Positions 10,167 through 30,930 of a stretch of 31,515 nucleotides of DNA are shown one piece after another. The stretch's first letter is position 1, and each line of letters begins with the position of its first letter. The position numbers and the translations under genes are program-made. Origin of the DNA: a virus. The notes beneath the pieces were generated by a model, which searched no databases, was not told where the DNA came from, and saw only the letters and a program-made list of their open reading frames with translations. The stretch lies in the IMG/VR virus record IMGVR_UViG_3300027759_000291, positions 1 to 31,515 of that record. One strand, given 5' to 3'.

Positions 10167-10186
10167 TTAAAAACTATTTATAAAAG

Positions 10187-18925: not shown

Positions 18926-19363
18926 ATGATAATACTAAACGAAGGATACAACAACGCAAACGCAACATGTTCAAGGAATAAAAACTTGACTGGTTCTGTT
19001 TGTTATTTATTTGGATTCAAACACAAACTCTCACAAGAGGTTTGGAGGTTTGTACCATACAGAATACCACCAAGTGTGGGATACTCACCTGGTTATGACT
19101 TATTTAGTATTACAATAGACCCAAGTCAACCTGAAGCATATTTGACTGGGGCAACAACAACAGGACAAACAAATGTTCACTTAATTGAGGGTGAGTATTA
19201 TGTTAAGGTATGGGAACAATCCACAGCCTTATCAGGAAATACAAACCCCAATCTTGCCTATGATGTAGTTTATGAGACCATTGCTCAAGTAAACTATTCA
19301 GGAAATACTAACCCTATCACTTACTCTGGAACAAGTGATATTTATAAAATATACGAAGGATGA
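18926..19363 (+). CDS. Structural protein of unknown role, upstream of portal
   Basis: This beta-rich protein has 145 residues. Two short segments are typical of Bacteroidota phage structural proteins: VWRFVPYRIPPS and EGEYYVKVWEQS, the latter followed by NPNLAYDVVYE. It starts 4 nt after the adhesin gene, and its stop overlaps the portal start (ATGA at 19360-19363). It could be a fibre attachment or head-surface protein. I cannot choose between these from the sequence. Confidence 0.55.
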   Translation: MIILNEGYNNANATCSRNKNLTGSVCYLFGFKHKLSQEVWRFVPYRIPPSVGYSPGYDLFSITIDPSQPEAYLTGATTTGQTNVHLIEGEYYVKVWEQSTALSGNTNPNLAYDVVYETIAQVNYSGNTNPITYSGTSDIYKIYEG

Positions 19364-20433
19364 TAAATATTGAAAAACTAAACTTTGGTGTAAACACCAT
19401 CACATCATTTCAAGAGGTGATAACAAAGGGACAACCTTTTGTATCTTTTGGTGTGGATAACTTATTTCCAAATGAGTTGTATATGTTATTGGACGCTTCA
19501 CCGATTCACAACTCTGCTGTTAGAGCCCGTGTTGATAATTCTGTTGGTTCAGGATACATCAATGACTACAAGATTAACTCAAAACAATACATCAATGATG
19601 TTGCTAAACAAATGTTCTTTGAGTTGATTGTAACAGGTAATCTCTTCTTGGAGGTGGTTTGGCGTAAAGACCGCAGTCAGGGTTTGGCAGGTTTCCATGT
19701 TATTCCAACAAAATACATGAGAGTTCATAAACCTGAACATCCAGGTGAACCAGCCACAAAATATCTTTATTCAAGAGATTGGGCTAATTGGAGAAGGGGT
19801 AGTTCCATTATTGAGTTCAGTGAGTTTGACCCAATGAACTATACCAATAGACAAATAGTTCACATTAGAACTTATGGACCTCAAAGTGAGTATTATGGTG
19901 TTCCATCATATCTTGCTTGTATCAATGATATTAAGTTAAACCACGAGATTACTGTTTATAACCTTGCCAACATCATCAATGGTTGTTCTATGGGTATGTG
20001 GGTTCACTTTAACCAACCAGCACCTGATTCAGAATACGAACAGAATAATATCTTAAGAAAGATTGAAGACAGGTATATGGGTGCTGAAGCAGCAAATAGA
20101 GTGATTATATCTTATGGTGAAGAAGGACAAAAACCTGATATTACACAGATACAAACAAATGTGGAAGATGGTTATTTTTCAAGTATATTTGAGTTATGCC
20201 AGCATCAGATACTTTGTGGTCATAACATACCCGATGCGTCAATTATTGGGCTCCCACAAAGAACCGGATTTAGTTCATCAGCAGACCAATTAGAAACAGG
20301 ATTTAAGTTATTTTTATCAACGAGTATTTATCCATTACAAAAGTTCTTGAATAGAGAGTTAAAACCTATATTAGAATTGATATATCCAAATGACCAAATT
20401 GACTTAACCATAACCCAAAATAACATCATATAA
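19360..20433 (+). CDS. Portal protein
   Basis: The protein has 357 residues, slightly short for a siphovirus portal. Recognisable portal features include an N-terminal wing with NLFPNELYMLLDASPIHNSA, VRARVDNSVGSGY, the GNLFLEVVWRKD strand pair followed by VIPTKYMRVHK, YGPQSEYYGVPSYLAC before the long helix, and a C-terminal ETGFKLFLSTSIYPLQKFLN helix. It forms the dodecameric ring through which the terminase pumps DNA. It lies about 19 kb beyond the terminase across the genome joint, whereas portal and terminase genes usually adjoin. Start overlap ATGA couples it to the upstream gene. Confidence 0.75.
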   Translation: MINIEKLNFGVNTITSFQEVITKGQPFVSFGVDNLFPNELYMLLDASPIHNSAVRARVDNSVGSGYINDYKINSKQYINDVAKQMFFELIVTGNLFLEVVWRKDRSQGLAGFHVIPTKYMRVHKPEHPGEPATKYLYSRDWANWRRGSSIIEFSEFDPMNYTNRQIVHIRTYGPQSEYYGVPSYLACINDIKLNHEITVYNLANIINGCSMGMWVHFNQPAPDSEYEQNNILRKIEDRYMGAEAANRVIISYGEEGQKPDITQIQTNVEDGYFSSIFELCQHQILCGHNIPDASIIGLPQRTGFSSSADQLETGFKLFLSTSIYPLQKFLNRELKPILELIYPNDQIDLTITQNNII

Positions 20434-21450: not shown

Positions 21451-21621
21451 TTAGTATTTGTCTGATAAGTGTTGTTCGTATGCTTCTCTTTCCATTAACT
21501 CTTGATGGTAGTCATCCATCGCTCTTTGTTTGTATAATTCATACTGGTAATCTTCATCACCATGTAATTGATTGTAGTGTTCATCAATCAGTTCTTGTAA
21601 AATATTCTTTGTCTGTCCCAT
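21451..21621 (-). CDS. Small acidic protein, 56 residues
   Basis: The ORF begins MGQTKNILQELIDEHYNQLH and continues with acidic and aromatic residues (GDEDYQYELYKQ), ending HLSDKY. It is predicted to be one or two helices. The promoter at 21626-21657 ends 4 nt before the ATG, so the mRNA would have almost no leader. It is first gene of an operon with 21240 and 21073. The function is unknown. Confidence 0.65.
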   Translation of the reverse strand: MGQTKNILQELIDEHYNQLHGDEDYQYELYKQRAMDDYHQELMEREAYEQHLSDKY

Positions 21622-21625
21622 AGTT

Positions 21626-21657
21626 AAAATATAGTAAAAAGTTTTTAATCAATCAAA
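21626..21657 (-). promoter_or_regulatory. Promoter, TTTG-N20-TATATTTT, leaderless
   Basis: On the minus strand TTTG (21657-21654) lies 20 nt upstream of TATATTTT (21633-21626), one mismatch from the Bacteroidota -7 box TAnnTTTG. Four bases separate it from the ATG of the 56-residue gene. The -33 box lies within the gene at 21645. Confidence 0.6.
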
Positions 21658-21854
21658 TCTACATCAATAGATTTTTTATCATTTTCATCAATTACCAGTT
21701 GTAGTTTTTCAGCCAGTCTGGTATACCCAACCATGTCGGGGAATTGTTTGTTGATGTCCACACAAGCGTTGTAAAGGACTTTAACATCTTGTAGATACAA
21801 AGTCATATCTACATAATTGTAATCTGTTTCGGGGTTAAGTTTTCTGTAATCCAT
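21645..21854 (-). CDS. Small acidic protein, 69 residues
   Basis: It begins MDYRKLNPETDYNYVDMTLY and ends DKKSIDVDLID. It is acidic and probably helical (VKVLYNACVDINKQFP, YTRLAEKLQLVIDEND). No family is recognised. It is transcribed from its own promoter at 21859-21890 with the -7 box 4 nt before the ATG. The gene downstream, at 21451, has its -33 box inside this coding sequence, so the two transcripts overlap. Confidence 0.7.
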   Translation of the reverse strand: MDYRKLNPETDYNYVDMTLYLQDVKVLYNACVDINKQFPDMVGYTRLAEKLQLVIDENDKKSIDVDLID

Positions 21855-21858
21855 ATAT

Positions 21859-21890
21859 CAAAGGTATGCTTATTTTTTTAATATTCCAAA
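21859..21890 (-). promoter_or_regulatory. Promoter, TTTG-N20-TACCTTTG, leaderless
   Basis: The -7 box is a perfect TAnnTTTG (21866-21859) and the -33 TTTG is at 21890-21887. It ends 4 nt before the ATG at 21854. The 20 bases from 21852 to 21871 recur identically at 22203-22222 before the next gene. Confidence 0.8.
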
Positions 21891-21896
21891 TTATTG

Positions 21897-22205
21897 TTAG
21901 ATTTCTCGCCAGTAGTAAATGTATCTCCAAACCATGTTATCATCTTTCTTTGTATCAGTGTACCCCCTGTTAATCATTTCATTAAGAAACATACACTCTT
22001 GAAACATCGCCTTAAACTCATAATCATCATTACCACATCTTTCATAGATGATATCCCTGTCCATACCACTATCCATCATAAATTGGATAAGAGTTAGTTT
22101 ACCAATCATGTGAGACATACTACAAGCGGTGAACATACAAGATTCCATTTCAATGAAAATCTTAACAGGGATGTTTAGGTCTTTAGCGATTTCTGATTGT
22201 TTCAT
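21897..22205 (-). CDS. Small Cys/Met-rich protein with possible N-terminal HTH
   Basis: The protein has 102 residues. The start MKQSEIAKDLNIPVKIFIEM resembles the first helices of a helix-turn-helix. The middle is Met- and Cys-rich (MESCMFTACSMSHMIGKLT), and the end is aromatic and basic (MVWRYIYYWREI). I know no matching family. It has its own promoter at 22210-22240, so it is expressed as a single leaderless transcript. A regulator or host-takeover protein would fit its position, but this is not shown. Confidence 0.65.
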   Translation of the reverse strand: MKQSEIAKDLNIPVKIFIEMESCMFTACSMSHMIGKLTLIQFMMDSGMDRDIIYERCGNDDYEFKAMFQECMFLNEMINRGYTDTKKDDNMVWRYIYYWREI

Positions 22206-22209
22206 ATAT

Positions 22210-22240
22210 CAAAGGTATGCTTTATTTGTTAAACTACAAA
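22210..22240 (-). promoter_or_regulatory. Promoter, TTTG-N19-TACCTTTG, leaderless
   Basis: There is a perfect -7 box (22217-22210), a TTTG at 22240-22237 and a 19-nt spacer. The box ends 4 nt before the ATG at 22205. The -33 box lies inside the end of the gene at 22229. Confidence 0.8.
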
Positions 22241-22414
22241 GTTTATTGTAAAATAATCAAAGTTTCCACCAGTACTCTTAAAGTCATCCAACTCATTGTG
22301 ATAGAGGTATTCTTCAACATCTTCATAAGATGGATATGATGTAAGAATACTGATTTCTTTTGTTAATTCATCGTATTCGTTCCAAAATAAGATATTCAAT
22401 TTATGTGTTTCCAT
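22229..22414 (-). CDS. Small acidic protein, 61 residues
   Basis: It begins METHKLNILFWNEYDELTKE and ends FDYFTINFVV. The composition is acidic and aromatic, with no motif I recognise. Its -7 box at 22419-22426 overlaps the stop codon of the gene upstream (22424), so the two genes are packed with no spare bases. Leaderless expression is likely. A small early protein that blocks a host factor is one possibility for such acidic proteins, with no direct evidence here. Confidence 0.65.
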   Translation of the reverse strand: METHKLNILFWNEYDELTKEISILTSYPSYEDVEEYLYHNELDDFKSTGGNFDYFTINFVV

Positions 22415-22418
22415 ATAT

Positions 22419-22426
22419 CAAAGTTA
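22419..22426 (-). promoter_or_regulatory. -7 box TAACTTTG, shares a stop codon
   Basis: TAACTTTG matches TAnnTTTG and ends 4 nt before the ATG at 22414. Its first three bases are the TAA stop of the gene at 22424-22759. No good -33 TTG lies at 19-20 nt, so this promoter may be weaker. Confidence 0.6.
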
Positions 22427-22759
22427 TTTAGACATCAAAGAAATAATACGAACACACGCTGCTTCAAGTTGGTTATTTCTAACACAAGATAGTTGGTCTT
22501 CTTGTGGTTGAGTTGAAAATGAACGGAAGTAACCAAATACTTCTGTCGCATCTTTTGCTCTGTTAGAAGGTTTAAGAACCATCGCCATATCAGTTTTGGT
22601 GTTTTGGATGATAAGTTCCCATACACCATCAAAACCCATATCAAAACCAATCTTGATGTTAGGTGATTTAGAATACTTCTTTTTCAATTTAGAAGCCAAG
22701 TCGTTCAAGGTTTTACTTCCTTTAATTCCGTTCGGGGTGTTGATTACCAAGTAGTTCAT
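22424..22759 (-). CDS. Hypothetical basic protein, 111 residues
   Basis: It begins MNYLVINTPNGIKGSKTLND, then a Lys-rich helix (LASKLKKKYSKSPN) and a beta segment (IKIGFDMGFDGVWELII). The end contains two Cys. No family is recognised. The promoter at 22795-22826 leaves a leader of about 30 nt, so unlike its neighbours it is not leaderless and could be controlled through that leader. Confidence 0.7.
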   Translation of the reverse strand: MNYLVINTPNGIKGSKTLNDLASKLKKKYSKSPNIKIGFDMGFDGVWELIIQNTKTDMAMVLKPSNRAKDATEVFGYFRSFSTQPQEDQLSCVRNNQLEAACVRIISLMSK

Positions 22760-22794
22760 AGTCGTTTATTTTTTTATAGTGTGATTGTGTCTTA

Positions 22795-22826
22795 CAAAGA
22801 TACTGATTATTTTGATACTACCAAAA
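22795..22826 (-). promoter_or_regulatory. Promoter, TTTTG-N19-TATCTTTG, with leader
   Basis: TTTTG (22826-22822) lies 19 nt upstream of a perfect -7 box TATCTTTG (22802-22795). The ATG is at 22759, giving a leader of about 30 nt. The -33 box lies inside the 3' end of the gene at 22807. Confidence 0.8.
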
Positions 22827-23082
22827 CTTTTTCCATACTTTTTTCAATTACATCAAACAACTCATCTTGTGAGAAACCATCTTTAATGGCTTTAGCACTC
22901 TTAAGATATTTGGTAATTGATTTGTTATTATCAATCTGTTCTACAGTCAATTTCAAGTCATAAAACATACGGGGTAGTGTAGATGATTTATACATCTGTA
23001 GAATAAAGGCAAGATTAGTGTAACCATTACCAATGTACGATTGAGATTGTTTCATTTGTTTGATTGTTTGTCCGTTTTCCAT
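22807..23082 (-). CDS. Hypothetical helical protein, 91 residues
   Basis: The start at 23082 (MENGQTIKQMKQSQSYIGNG) is chosen over 23100 because the promoter at 23087-23118 ends 4 nt before it and would initiate downstream of the longer start. The protein is helical, with YLKSAKAIKDGFSQDELFDV and ending EKVLVVSK. No family is recognised. It is probably expressed alone, leaderless. Confidence 0.65.
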   Translation of the reverse strand: MENGQTIKQMKQSQSYIGNGYTNLAFILQMYKSSTLPRMFYDLKLTVEQIDNNKSITKYLKSAKAIKDGFSQDELFDVIEKSMEKVLVVSK

Positions 23083-23086
23083 ACTA

Positions 23087-23118
23087 CAAAGAAACAACAA
23101 AAAACTGAAACCACCAAA
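23087..23118 (-). promoter_or_regulatory. Promoter, TTTG-N20-TTTCTTTG, leaderless
   Basis: TTTG (23118-23115) and TTTCTTTG (23094-23087), one mismatch from TAnnTTTG, are separated by 20 nt. The box is 4 nt before ATG 23082, the same spacing as the other mini-genes. Confidence 0.6.
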
Positions 23119-24145: not shown

Positions 24146-24160
24146 ATCTATAAATATCAA

Positions 24161-24192
24161 CAAAAATAAGAAAAAACAATTAAATTACCAAA
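24161..24192 (-). promoter_or_regulatory. Leftward early promoter, TTTG-N20-TATTTTTG
   Basis: TTTG (24192-24189) and a perfect TATTTTTG (24168-24161) lie 20 nt apart. Its -33 box is adjacent to that of the rightward promoter at 24196, so both face away from a shared centre. It drives the 24145-23119 operon with a leader of about 11 nt. Confidence 0.75.
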
Positions 24193-24195
24193 CTA

Positions 24196-24226
24196 TTTGT
24201 TTTTTTTATAATTTATATTATATTTA
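24196..24226 (+). promoter_or_regulatory. Rightward promoter, TTTG-N19-TATATTTA
   Basis: TTTG 24196-24199 and TATATTTA 24219-24226 (one mismatch from TAnnTTTG) are separated by 19 nt. The start would be near 24231, just before a series of hairpins, leaving about 190 nt of untranslated leader before ATG 24421. CAAA-CTA-TTTG across the two -33 boxes is a small palindrome and possible operator. Confidence 0.55.
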
Positions 24227-24230
24227 TTGA

Positions 24231-24420
24231 TGTAATACCTGAAATGGTATTGCTCACTTGTCTATAATTCAGGGACTTATAAAAGACAACATCAAGATTC
24301 AAGATGTATAAGTGATAAGAACCCAGACCTTAATATACTTGTTTTTCAGTATGGGGGGCTGGGGGGACTTATCACCTTCATAATCTTCAAGTAGTTATAT
24401 CCAGTAGGTATTTAAGTAAT
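24231..24420 (+). ncRNA. Structured leader with alternative hairpins (candidate switch or origin)
   Basis: No ORF is seen. Helices in order: 24234-24239 with 24246-24251; helix A, 24259-24267 with 24277-24288 (9 bp, AAA bulge); helix B, 24275-24281 with 24307-24313, with an inner 24290-24293/24303-24306 stem; helix C, 24312-24319 with 24368-24375; and a small hairpin 24335-24339/24348-24352 inside C. A and B share bases 24277-24281 and B and C share 24312-24313, so they exclude each other in sequence, as in attenuators. GGGACTTAT is repeated at 24272 and 24364. G6-CT-G6 lies at 24353-24366. A replication origin is the main alternative. Confidence 0.5.
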
Positions 24421-24612
24421 ATGATAGATAAAGATACAATAGGAATTGCTACAGCAAATATAGTTACACCAGTAGCAGTAGGAATAACTTTAATGAATCC
24501 AGTAACTATATTAACAATAGTTTCAATCTTAACATCAATTATTCTAAATGGAGTATTGATATACAAAAATCTCAACAAGAAAAATTACCAGGATACTACA
24601 GAAGAAAAATAA
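24421..24612 (+). CDS. Small membrane protein, possible holin
   Basis: The protein has 63 residues and about 36 of them are hydrophobic: TIGIATANIVTPVAVGITLM and ILTIVSILTSIILNGVLIY, a probable two-helix hairpin or one long helix. It has an acidic start and a Lys/Asn-rich C-terminal tail (KNLNKKNYQDTTEEK). Size, charge distribution and position before a strong terminator fit a small phage holin, but no endolysin is recognised in the window, so the lysis role is only an inference. It is the first gene after the structured leader. Confidence 0.6.
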   Translation: MIDKDTIGIATANIVTPVAVGITLMNPVTILTIVSILTSIILNGVLIYKNLNKKNYQDTTEEK

Positions 24613-24658
24613 GTTTATTATAATTAACTTAATTCTAATGTACCCATGTTAGATTACT

Positions 24659-24692
24659 AAACCCTTCCAAGTCCCATTAGAAGGGTTTTTTT
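24659..24692 (+). terminator. Rho-independent terminator after the small membrane protein
   Basis: AAACCCTTC (24659-24667) pairs with GAAGGGTTT (24680-24688) around a 12-nt loop. A T run continues to 24692. It is a strong canonical terminator. Confidence 0.9.
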
Positions 24693-24858
24693 ATTGCCAA
24701 ATATTTCTTATATTTATTTCAATGAAGTAGTGCTTCGTTCTGATATACTGTCCATATAATTTTTTTTATACTACTTCATCAGTCATACTATACCCCCAAT
24801 TATCTAACATTGGGGGTTTTTTATTTCCAACTCATTTATTTTGATTATATTTATAGTA
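24693..24858. other. Gene-free stretch with an inverted repeat
   Basis: This stretch lies between the terminator ending at 24692 and the next start. It contains a 9-bp inverted repeat, TGAAGTAGT (24723-24731) and ACTACTTCA (24770-24778), around 38 nt, and then a second terminator. No ORF or clear promoter was found. A small RNA bounded by the two terminators is possible but unproven. Confidence 0.5.
24792..24822 (+). terminator. Second rho-independent terminator
   Basis: ACCCCCAAT (24792-24800) pairs perfectly with ATTGGGGGT (24809-24817) around an 8-nt loop, followed by a T run. No coding sequence precedes it within 170 nt, which suggests a non-coding transcript or a back-up for the terminator at 24659. 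Confidence 0.9.
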
Positions 24859-28723: not shown

Positions 28724-29055
28724 AGAGTTTGTCCAATCAATCCAAGTATTTCATCAATTATATTTTGGATTTCAGTATTCTCTAAACCAAGTGAGTTTCT
28801 ATTCTCATAGATTACTTTTCTCAATTCTCTTAAATAAACAACTGCTTCAACCAATCTTGATTCAGGAATAACCAAAGGAACTCTACCACCAATAATACCA
28901 AAATATGTTTCAGTTAGTTCATCAACATTTTCAATTACCTCTTTGTAAAATTGGTCTAATGCTTCGTGGACACCTAATGATGTTGTTTCTAAATGGGCTA
29001 TGTGCATCAAATCCCTTGATTGGAATAAAATACCTAAAAATATTTCTGGTTTCAT
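28702..29055 (-). CDS. Leftward DUF5856-like (ferritin-fold-like) protein
   Basis: This gene points against its neighbours. Beginning at ATG 29055 (MKPEIFLGILFQSRDLMHIA) or 29061, the protein has 117-119 residues. Features are HIAHLETTSLGVHEALDQFY, VIENVDELTETYFG and two long helices to the end. The two His/Glu-containing helices recall the ferritin/Dps-like DUF5856 family found in phages. The biochemical role is unknown. It overlaps the methyltransferase end by 22 nt and its start lies 29 nt from the terminase start. TATATTTA at 29061-29068 could serve as a -7 box. Confidence 0.65.
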   Translation of the reverse strand: MKPEIFLGILFQSRDLMHIAHLETTSLGVHEALDQFYKEVIENVDELTETYFGIIGGRVPLVIPESRLVEAVVYLRELRKVIYENRNSLGLENTEIQNIIDEILGLIGQTLYRLSLS

Positions 29056-29083
29056 AATCATAAATATACAAATAATAAGTTAT

Positions 29084-30244
29084 ATGAAATTTCAAGTAAC
29101 ACAGGTATGGGAACACATACACGAAGCAGTACAACAAGAAAAGAGATATATCTTTTTAAGGGGTAGTTCAAGGAGTTCTAAAACCATATCAGCACTACAA
29201 TATATTGTATTAGAAGCACTCAAAACCCCCAAGACAAGTATAACCATAGCCCGTGAAACACAAGTGTCTTTAAGACATACAATTCTACCTGACTTTAAGT
29301 TTGTAATGGAATCAATAGATATATGGGATAAGGGTGTATTCCAAAAACAAGAGTTTGTTTATACCTTTGAAAATGGTTCAGTTGTTAGATTTATTGGATT
29401 AGATGATTCCACAGGTAAATTAAAAGGTTTTAAGTCAGACATCATTTTAGTTGATGAGGTAAACACAATAGACAAGAACGCATTTATCCAAATGGATATT
29501 AGATGTTCCAAATACATTATGGCTTTATACAACCCTGAAATACCGATTGACTGGTGGGGCTTGGAATATGAAGGAAAAGAAAATGGGTGTATGTTACACT
29601 CAACTTGGAGGATGAATAGTTTCTTAGATAAAAGAACAATTCAAGCAATCAAGGAACTTATAGACATAGACCCTGATATGGCAAAGATATATTCAGAAGG
29701 TTTAATTGTAGAACCAAGAGAAAAGATATTCACACAACCAGAGTTATATGATGAACTACCAAGACATATCAAGGACAAGTACTACTCAATAGATTTTGGA
29801 TTTAGTAATGATGAGTGTGCTGTGGTGGAAATCAATGTGGATGGAAAGAACCTGTATGTTAAACAACTCATATATCAACTTGGATTAACCAATGAAGATT
29901 TAGCCTATAAACTCAAAGAGGTTGGAATAGACAGAAATGTTAATGTTGTAGCAGATTCAGCAGAACCAAAATCTATAGAAGAACTTAAAAGGTTGGGGAT
30001 AAATGTTAGACCTGTAAATAAAACCAGTATCCTATATGGTATCCAAAAAATGAAACAATTTAAGATATACTTACATAGTGAGAGTGTAGATTTAATCAGT
30101 GAGTTTACTAATTTCAAGTTTAAGAAAGACCGCACAGGGGCAATAACAAATAACACCATAGGCAAGGACCACTTAATTGATGCCTTAAAATATGGAATAG
30201 TACAATTTTTAGATAGACCAAAAACAAAAATAACAGTAATATGA
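29084..30244 (+). CDS. terL: Terminase large subunit, complete
   Basis: From ATG 29084 (MKFQVTQVWEHIHEAV) the protein has 386 residues. The in-frame start at 29000 would overlap the leftward gene and adds a segment unlike terminases. Walker A is GSSRSSKT at 27-34, Walker B is DIILVDE at 119-125. The C-terminal nuclease has D237 (SIDFG), D291 (VVADSAEPK) and D362/D366 (GKDHLIDALKY), the RNase H-like metal site. It pumps DNA into the prohead and cuts concatemers. The end is duplicated at 2-211. The stop overlaps the tail chaperone start, which joins packaging and tail genes in one transcript. Confidence 0.9.
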   Translation: MKFQVTQVWEHIHEAVQQEKRYIFLRGSSRSSKTISALQYIVLEALKTPKTSITIARETQVSLRHTILPDFKFVMESIDIWDKGVFQKQEFVYTFENGSVVRFIGLDDSTGKLKGFKSDIILVDEVNTIDKNAFIQMDIRCSKYIMALYNPEIPIDWWGLEYEGKENGCMLHSTWRMNSFLDKRTIQAIKELIDIDPDMAKIYSEGLIVEPREKIFTQPELYDELPRHIKDKYYSIDFGFSNDECAVVEINVDGKNLYVKQLIYQLGLTNEDLAYKLKEVGIDRNVNVVADSAEPKSIEELKRLGINVRPVNKTSILYGIQKMKQFKIYLHSESVDLISEFTNFKFKKDRTGAITNNTIGKDHLIDALKYGIVQFLDRPKTKITVI

Positions 30245-30930
30245 TAGAAATACAATTAAATGATAGGGTTGTAAAAGTAAAACCTGAAATCACAATAGAA
30301 CAATTCCAAAGATTAAAAGCCAAAGAAGAATTATACAAATCATCACCAGCAGATTTGTTAAGTATGTTATTAGCAGTACCTGTAAATGAACTCAAGGAAT
30401 TACCCTTAAATCAAATGGAGTTTGTTCAGTCATACCTGATGTCCCAAATGACGGAAACATCTCTTAAAGATGAATTGTATAATGTTTTCACACATAATGG
30501 AGTGGAGTATGGATTGGAAAATGATTGGAGTAAACTTGCTTGGGGTGCTTGGATGGATATGGAGGTATTCTCTGCTGAAAACATTGAGGAAAATATCCAT
30601 TTGATTATGGCGATATTATACAGACCTATTACTGAAAAGAAAAATGGTAAGTATAAGATTAAACCATACAAGGCGGATGAAATAGAAGACAGAGCCTATG
30701 AGTTTAGACAACTACCGATTAAGTATTGGTTTGGGGCAAGCGGTTTTTTTTTTCTAACCGCAACAATCTATACCAGCAATATAAAGAGTTCTTTGATGTG
30801 GACGAACAAAATGAACAAGAGGATAAAGATGGGGTGGGAAATACTACCAAAATGGGTAAAAAAGAGGCTGCCTTTAGATACTATTTTAGTATCACACTCA
30901 ATCTTGCAGGAGAAGACATTACAAAAATAA
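30241..30930 (+). CDS. Tail assembly chaperone, zero-frame form, second copy
   Basis: This is the counterpart of 208-897, also 229 residues, after the complete terminase. It differs mainly near the N-terminus (for example RLKAKEELYKSSPADLLSML in place of RLQNKEEIYKTSPPDLLSLF) and after the slip site. The KYWFGASGFFF segment and T10 run are retained. It represents either the same gene in a second strain version or a tandem duplicate. Confidence 0.75.
   Translation: MIEIQLNDRVVKVKPEITIEQFQRLKAKEELYKSSPADLLSMLLAVPVNELKELPLNQMEFVQSYLMSQMTETSLKDELYNVFTHNGVEYGLENDWSKLAWGAWMDMEVFSAENIEENIHLIMAILYRPITEKKNGKYKIKPYKADEIEDRAYEFRQLPIKYWFGASGFFFLTATIYTSNIKSSLMWTNKMNKRIKMGWEILPKWVKKRLPLDTILVSHSILQEKTLQK

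Follow-up and report, generated by a model that had tools for sequence, protein, structure and literature searches.

The window analysed here is the whole virus record IMGVR_UViG_3300027759_000291, with a length of 31,515 bases and a G+C content of 34%. Two DNA methyltransferases and an XkdF-like protease are encoded in it, along with the terminase and portal genes:

29000-30244, large terminase
19360-20433, portal protein

Two ORFs of 229 aa (208-897 and 30241-30930) hit one and the same PHROG (32199), and the sequences upstream of the two are very similar; they represent a duplicated gene lying near both ends of the record. The close kin of this phage are other metagenomic contigs. Identity of the terminase to those of named phages is at most about 35%; its best 20 matches belong to phages of Bacteroides, Parabacteroides and Phocaeicola, and Flavobacterium phages are also found among the matches. 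A search of a phage nucleotide database with 11.5 kb of the window gave no match, and tRNA and Rfam searches of the window found none. Because of these terminase neighbours and the promoter type described below, the host is probably a member of Bacteroidota.

Between 21,073 and 24,145 the window carries 12 leftward genes. In five of them a TAnnTTTG box with no more than one mismatch ends exactly 4 nt before the ATG (spacing N4, where N is the number of bases between box and ATG). The array includes the following features, genes being named by the position of their start:

21859..21890, minus strand, promoter of 21854, full consensus TTTG-N20-TACCTTTG, spacer ATAT, N4
21645..21854, minus strand, gene 21854, 69 aa, predicted leaderless, N-terminus conserved in the related loci L007 and L048
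22210..22240, minus strand, promoter of 22205, full consensus TTTG-N19-TACCTTTG, spacer ATAT, N4
21897..22205, minus strand, gene 22205, 102 aa, orphan, predicted leaderless
22419..22426, minus strand, box of 22414, TAACTTTG, spacer ATAT, N4, without TTTG
22229..22414, minus strand, gene 22414, 61 aa, orphan, possibly leaderless
23087..23118, minus strand, promoter of 23082, one-mismatch TTTG-N20-TTTCTTTG, spacer TAGT, N4
22807..23082, minus strand, gene 23082, 91 aa, predicted leaderless
21626..21657, minus strand, promoter of 21621, one-mismatch TTTG-N20-TATATTTT, spacer AACT, N4
21451..21621, minus strand, gene 21621, 56 aa, predicted leaderless
22795..22825, minus strand, promoter of 22759, full consensus TTTG-N19-TATCTTTG, N35
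22760..22790, minus strand, predicted leader of 22759, 31 nt (N35 minus 4)
22424..22759, minus strand, gene 22759, 111-aa mini-gene, leadered neighbour

All five starts and boxes named in the initial annotation are present, and the start codon is ATG in each of the five genes. The upstream TTTG ascribed to four of them was likewise found, at 20, 20, 19 and 20 nt for 21621, 21854, 22205 and 23082, respectively. Compared with the sigma-A promoter, 21854, 22205 and the leadered 22759 are exact, 23082 and 21621 have one mismatch each (the 23082 box lacks the near-invariant A, and the 21621 box lacks the G), and 22414 has no TTTG. Among the five N4 promoters only those of 21854 and 22205 are thus exact in both elements. 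The two variable box positions contain no G (TACC, TACC, TAAC and TATA), as in the TAHHTTTG rule of F. johnsoniae (PMC6847099); the same is true for the leadered 22759 box (TATC) and the variant 23082 box (TTTC). The TTTG of 21621 sits within the preceding gene. The array proteins gave nothing significant in Pfam or PHROGs. Their N-termini are conserved in kin for 21854 and 21621 and weakly so for 23082; the remaining two N4 genes are the orphans. As for the 21621 promoter, the same box and spacing are present in L007, and a full box at N7 in L032.

In A+T-rich sequence such boxes could arise by chance, and the initial annotation may have picked the genes that fit. The box alone gives this reading some ground: TAnnTTTG was seen 54 times in the window against 49.8 expected and is no commoner than in shuffled sequence, and three of the five window sites are degenerate. 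Since the box by itself is not enriched, the signal consists in its fixed position. When boxes with up to one mismatch are counted before the 12 leftward genes, five stand at N4, and within N0-N40 every other spacing has three or fewer; five boxes were never reached, at N4 or any other spacing, in 20,000 Markov simulations. N4 also recurs across independent phages. Chance is scarcely credible as the source of the array and is already contradicted for the five-site set, while 22414 and 21621, taken singly, might be chance matches.

The spacing was surveyed in kin (30 terminase loci and 7 mini-gene loci) and in loci with the same promoter, supplemented by a promoter-core scan of IMG/VR that was blind to spacing. 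After removal of duplicates the survey comprised 73 records (720 kb); a site was counted if TTTG-N19/20-TAnnTTTG preceded the ATG of an ORF of at least 35 aa. Full promoters fall into two classes. The first is narrow, with 22 sites at N4 against one at N1, one at N3, three at N7 and one at N8, and with none at N5, N6 or N9-N13 in the 73 records. The second is broad (N14-N32, peak at N24-25), with a few sites beyond. The N4 class makes up about 20% of the full promoters in phages (22/109). The kin search with a background count that the initial annotation had proposed supports its reading, the 22 N4 sites standing against 0 in Markov simulated sequence. Match lengths in the spacing-blind core scan correspond to N4 at eight sites, N10 at one and N17-28 at the rest. 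When the scan was loosened, most of the viral contigs it reached were unrelated, and N4 still outnumbered every other spacing (11/70; N5, 5). None of six named Bacteroidota phages (crAss001 and five Flavobacterium or Bacteroides isolates) contains an N4 full promoter, so general use in Bacteroidota phages is ruled out and N4 is a trait of some phage groups.

Several other loci carry N4 promoters. In L049 (11843-12702) three tandem mini-genes with similar promoters and the AACT spacer at N4 are followed by a fourth with a leader, and one of the N4 promoters overlaps the last codons of the preceding gene; this array is an independent counterpart of that in the window. A CxxC-motif protein family is represented in L014, L018, L019 and L127, with all four boxes exactly at N4; the longest of the proteins has 257 aa and the shortest, truncated at the contig end, 118 aa, and Pfam gave no match for the family. 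In L043 (344-784) SmpB is encoded on a phage contig behind an N4 promoter.

The meaning of the 4-nt spacing could be derived from start-site maps of Flavobacterium. The sigma-A box of F. psychrophilum lies at -12 to -5 (PMC9723704), and in F. johnsoniae transcription starts 4 or 5 nt after the box (PMC6847099). From these mapped positions, N4 would put +1 on the A of the ATG, or about one base away. Base composition around the predicted start agrees with this: T is found at -1 in 19/22 N4 sites, whereas leadered promoters have it there in 28/77 (P = 5e-5); in 53/77 leadered promoters A follows as fifth base downstream of the box. The earlier proposal that transcription begins at or within a few bases of the ATG is supported by the mapped box position, and backed by the sharp N4 class, the T-1/A+1 bias and an orthologue pair that differs by a 22-nt leader. 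Gene by gene, a leaderless start has a strong case in 21854 and 22205 and a moderate one in 23082 and 21621; the weakest is that of 22414.

This orthologue pair is found in L038 and L062, which share a 72-aa gene; the proteins are 93% identical, and the promoters are alike but for a few bases. L038 has TATCTTTG-TGGT-ATG (N4), whereas in L062 the same box is followed by a leader with exactly 22 more bases (N26). Gene 21854 varies in a similar way, being at N4 in the window and at N24 in L048, with no promoter at the ATG in L007. These differences between orthologues identify the leader as a separable part. A fixed class for each gene family, always leaderless or always leadered, is not supported as a rule, since both 21854 and the L038/L062 gene switch. 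For 22759, the natural contrast of the initial annotation, the same promoter was confirmed at N35 with a predicted leader of about 31 nt. Its homologues in kin mostly have a TAnnTTTG promoter with a leader; the L039 homologue has the variant box TATCTTCG, and for the L033 homologue an in-frame ATG further upstream, at N8, is an alternative start.

Strings of the TTTG-ATAT-ATG kind could alternatively represent a translation-initiation element or simply copied sequence. Copying has probably taken some part in the array: TTTGATATATG is common to three window genes, and the identical 20 bases reported earlier for two boxes were found as AAGCATACCTTTGATATATG at 21854 and 22205, within a 41-nt stretch of 80% identity, so one cassette was probably duplicated. 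Copying or a translation element as the whole explanation is very improbable. The 4-nt spacer varies widely in kin (TGGT, TTAT, AACT, TCCT, CCTT, CATC and others) while the box, the spacing and the distant TTTG stay; genes with 20-nt leaders have the same core as their promoter, and rightward genes are without the box (none of 25 has an exact one in the 45 nt upstream).

The boxes could also be real promoters whose transcripts start a few bases inside the ORF or are minor, the proteins being made mainly from polycistronic mRNA started upstream and the N4 boxes merely boosting downstream genes. Tight gene packing would allow translation from longer mRNAs as well; moreover, the TA of the 22414 box belongs to the stop codon of the gene before, and in L007 the ATG of the 21854 orthologue is not preceded by a promoter. 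An exact N4 class with nothing at N5 or N6, combined with conserved N-termini, indicates on the other hand that the ATG is kept in register with the box, which a booster of downstream genes would not require. The polycistronic explanation is quite unlikely.

The reading considered probable is that the N4 sites are Bacteroidota sigma-A promoters placed so that +1 coincides with the A of the ATG, giving leaderless mRNAs of early-type mini-genes. TTTG at -33 and TAnnTTTG at -12 to -5 would be recognized by the host RNA polymerase, the transcript would have the A of the ATG as its first base, and ribosomes would initiate on this leaderless 5'-terminal AUG. Initiation of this kind on leaderless mRNA has been demonstrated in E. 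coli (PMC4965119). Each mini-gene would be transcribed from its own compact promoter. Early expression is suggested by the presence of the boxes in the leftward array and their absence before the 25 rightward genes. As relatives have the same core either at N4, directly before the ATG, or ahead of a leader of about 20 nt, the mini-gene behaves as a compact cassette; the cassette, consisting of promoter, N4 or leader, and ORF, would be gained, lost and exchanged as a unit, and such turnover is observed among the kin. The simplest benefit would be compactness, since some 35 bases hold both promoter and start and may extend into the gene before.

A regulatory benefit, with translation differing from that of host mRNAs, is possible. 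The stronger proposal that the leaderless form serves as a switchable module, by which mini-genes are translated along a route different from that of host mRNAs, is rather doubtful; an example of such a route would be 70S initiation that continues while ordinary initiation is impaired by the phage or by a host defence.

A second motif, TATTTATA, is found at the border of the array and elsewhere in the window:

24149..24156, minus strand, second-type box TATTTATA, 3 nt before ATG 24145
24161..24192, minus strand, promoter before 24145, full consensus TTTG-N20-TATTTTTG, N15, near the second motif
24848..24855, plus strand, second-type box TATTTATA, 3 nt before ATG 24859, directly after a terminator-like hairpin
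about 10175-10182, plus strand, second-type box

In the window TATTTATA thus precedes both divergent first genes, 24145 and 24859. This phage and its kin have about 50 such boxes within 40 nt upstream of an ORF of at least 50 aa; 32 of them stand at N3-N5, where simulated sequence gave 0 or 1. The box is seen in L007, L008, L017, L018, L034, L047, L054 and others, often as ATATTTATAG and often right after a terminator-like hairpin. From its position, TATTTATA may be a second type of promoter from which leaderless mRNA is made. Its identity with a T4-late-type promoter (TATAAATA) is not supported, as TATAAATA has no peak at N3-5. In a general scan of viral contigs the spacings of TTATATTTATAG before ATG were spread out; the claim for a second motif is therefore limited to these phages. 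The divergent region itself (24200-24858) has two more ATATTTATT boxes, near 24220 and near 24710, as well as a 63-aa ORF (24421-24612) and terminator-like hairpins at about 24663-24690 and 24792-24817; a small RNA or short transcripts possibly arise from it.

Leaderless mRNAs are known in the presumed host phylum. They make up 5.5% of mapped mRNAs in F. psychrophilum (PMC9723704); in B. thetaiotaomicron 3.7% of mRNAs have a 5' UTR of <10 nt, with transposases among the examples (PMC7366714), and in F. johnsoniae 13% of leaders are of <=10 nt (PMC6847099). Across 119 Bacteroidia genomes the N4 form is in mild excess, with 319 occurrences compared with 128 for a reversed-pattern control (N6, 175 and 123). 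Its density there is about 1 match per 1.3 Mb, background included, versus 2 exact sites in the 31.5-kb window. Four of these genomes (G041, G081, G115 and G050) are N4-rich, with 13 to 27 each, many more than the rest; summed, they contain 23 sites at N3, 76 at N4, 47 at N5 and 34 at N6, so leaderless genes may be more heavily used in some hosts than in the species with published maps. When 84,980 genomes of bacteria and archaea were scanned for the core, no more than 15 stretches matched, and almost every one carries a Bacteroidota label. Two of the 15 have the N4 spacing; a DDE transposase follows one, and an ORF of 476 aa the other. The mapped host mRNAs and the host N4 excess together indicate that the mechanism is the host's own and is used much more densely by these phages. 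Host leaderless mRNAs share the sigma-A promoter type and the predicted start register with the phage N4 sites; unlike those of the hosts, the phage sites are concentrated in mini-gene arrays and are swapped with a leader on the same core.

Known systems resemble the array in part. In Deinococcus-Thermus a -10 motif adjacent to the ORF likewise sets a promoter element at a fixed short distance, and its leaderless outcome was demonstrated by mutation (PMC12340547). That motif belongs to another phylum and sigma factor, is classical -10-like and serves host genes genome-wide (about 1/3 of genes), whereas the phage box is TAnnTTTG with an upstream TTTG and is confined to the leftward array. Lambda cI is also a phage gene translated from a 5'-terminal AUG (PMC4965119); it is a single regulator gene of an E. 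coli phage, in contrast to the tandem cassettes in these phages of Bacteroidota. The literature found on leaderless initiation in Bacteroidota, which is hardly studied, gives only the rarity of such mRNAs, and arrays of leaderless promoters in phages of this phylum were not found described in it, coverage being incomplete. Bacteroidota do not use Shine-Dalgarno sequences. The mini-genes resemble phage moron cassettes, small genes that each have a promoter and differ between relatives; unlike in morons, the promoter is fused to the ATG, and no terminator was found after the mini-gene cassettes in the window.

The leaderless mechanism is thus already known, and what is new is its dense arrangement in mobile cassettes of early-type mini-genes. 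These phages supply matched natural pairs, in which the same promoter drives nearly the same gene with or without a 22-nt leader, so that the effect of a leader on translation in Bacteroidota becomes directly measurable. The arrangement would also help gene callers to set the starts of small phage genes, and would supply short promoter-plus-start parts for Bacteroidota genetics.
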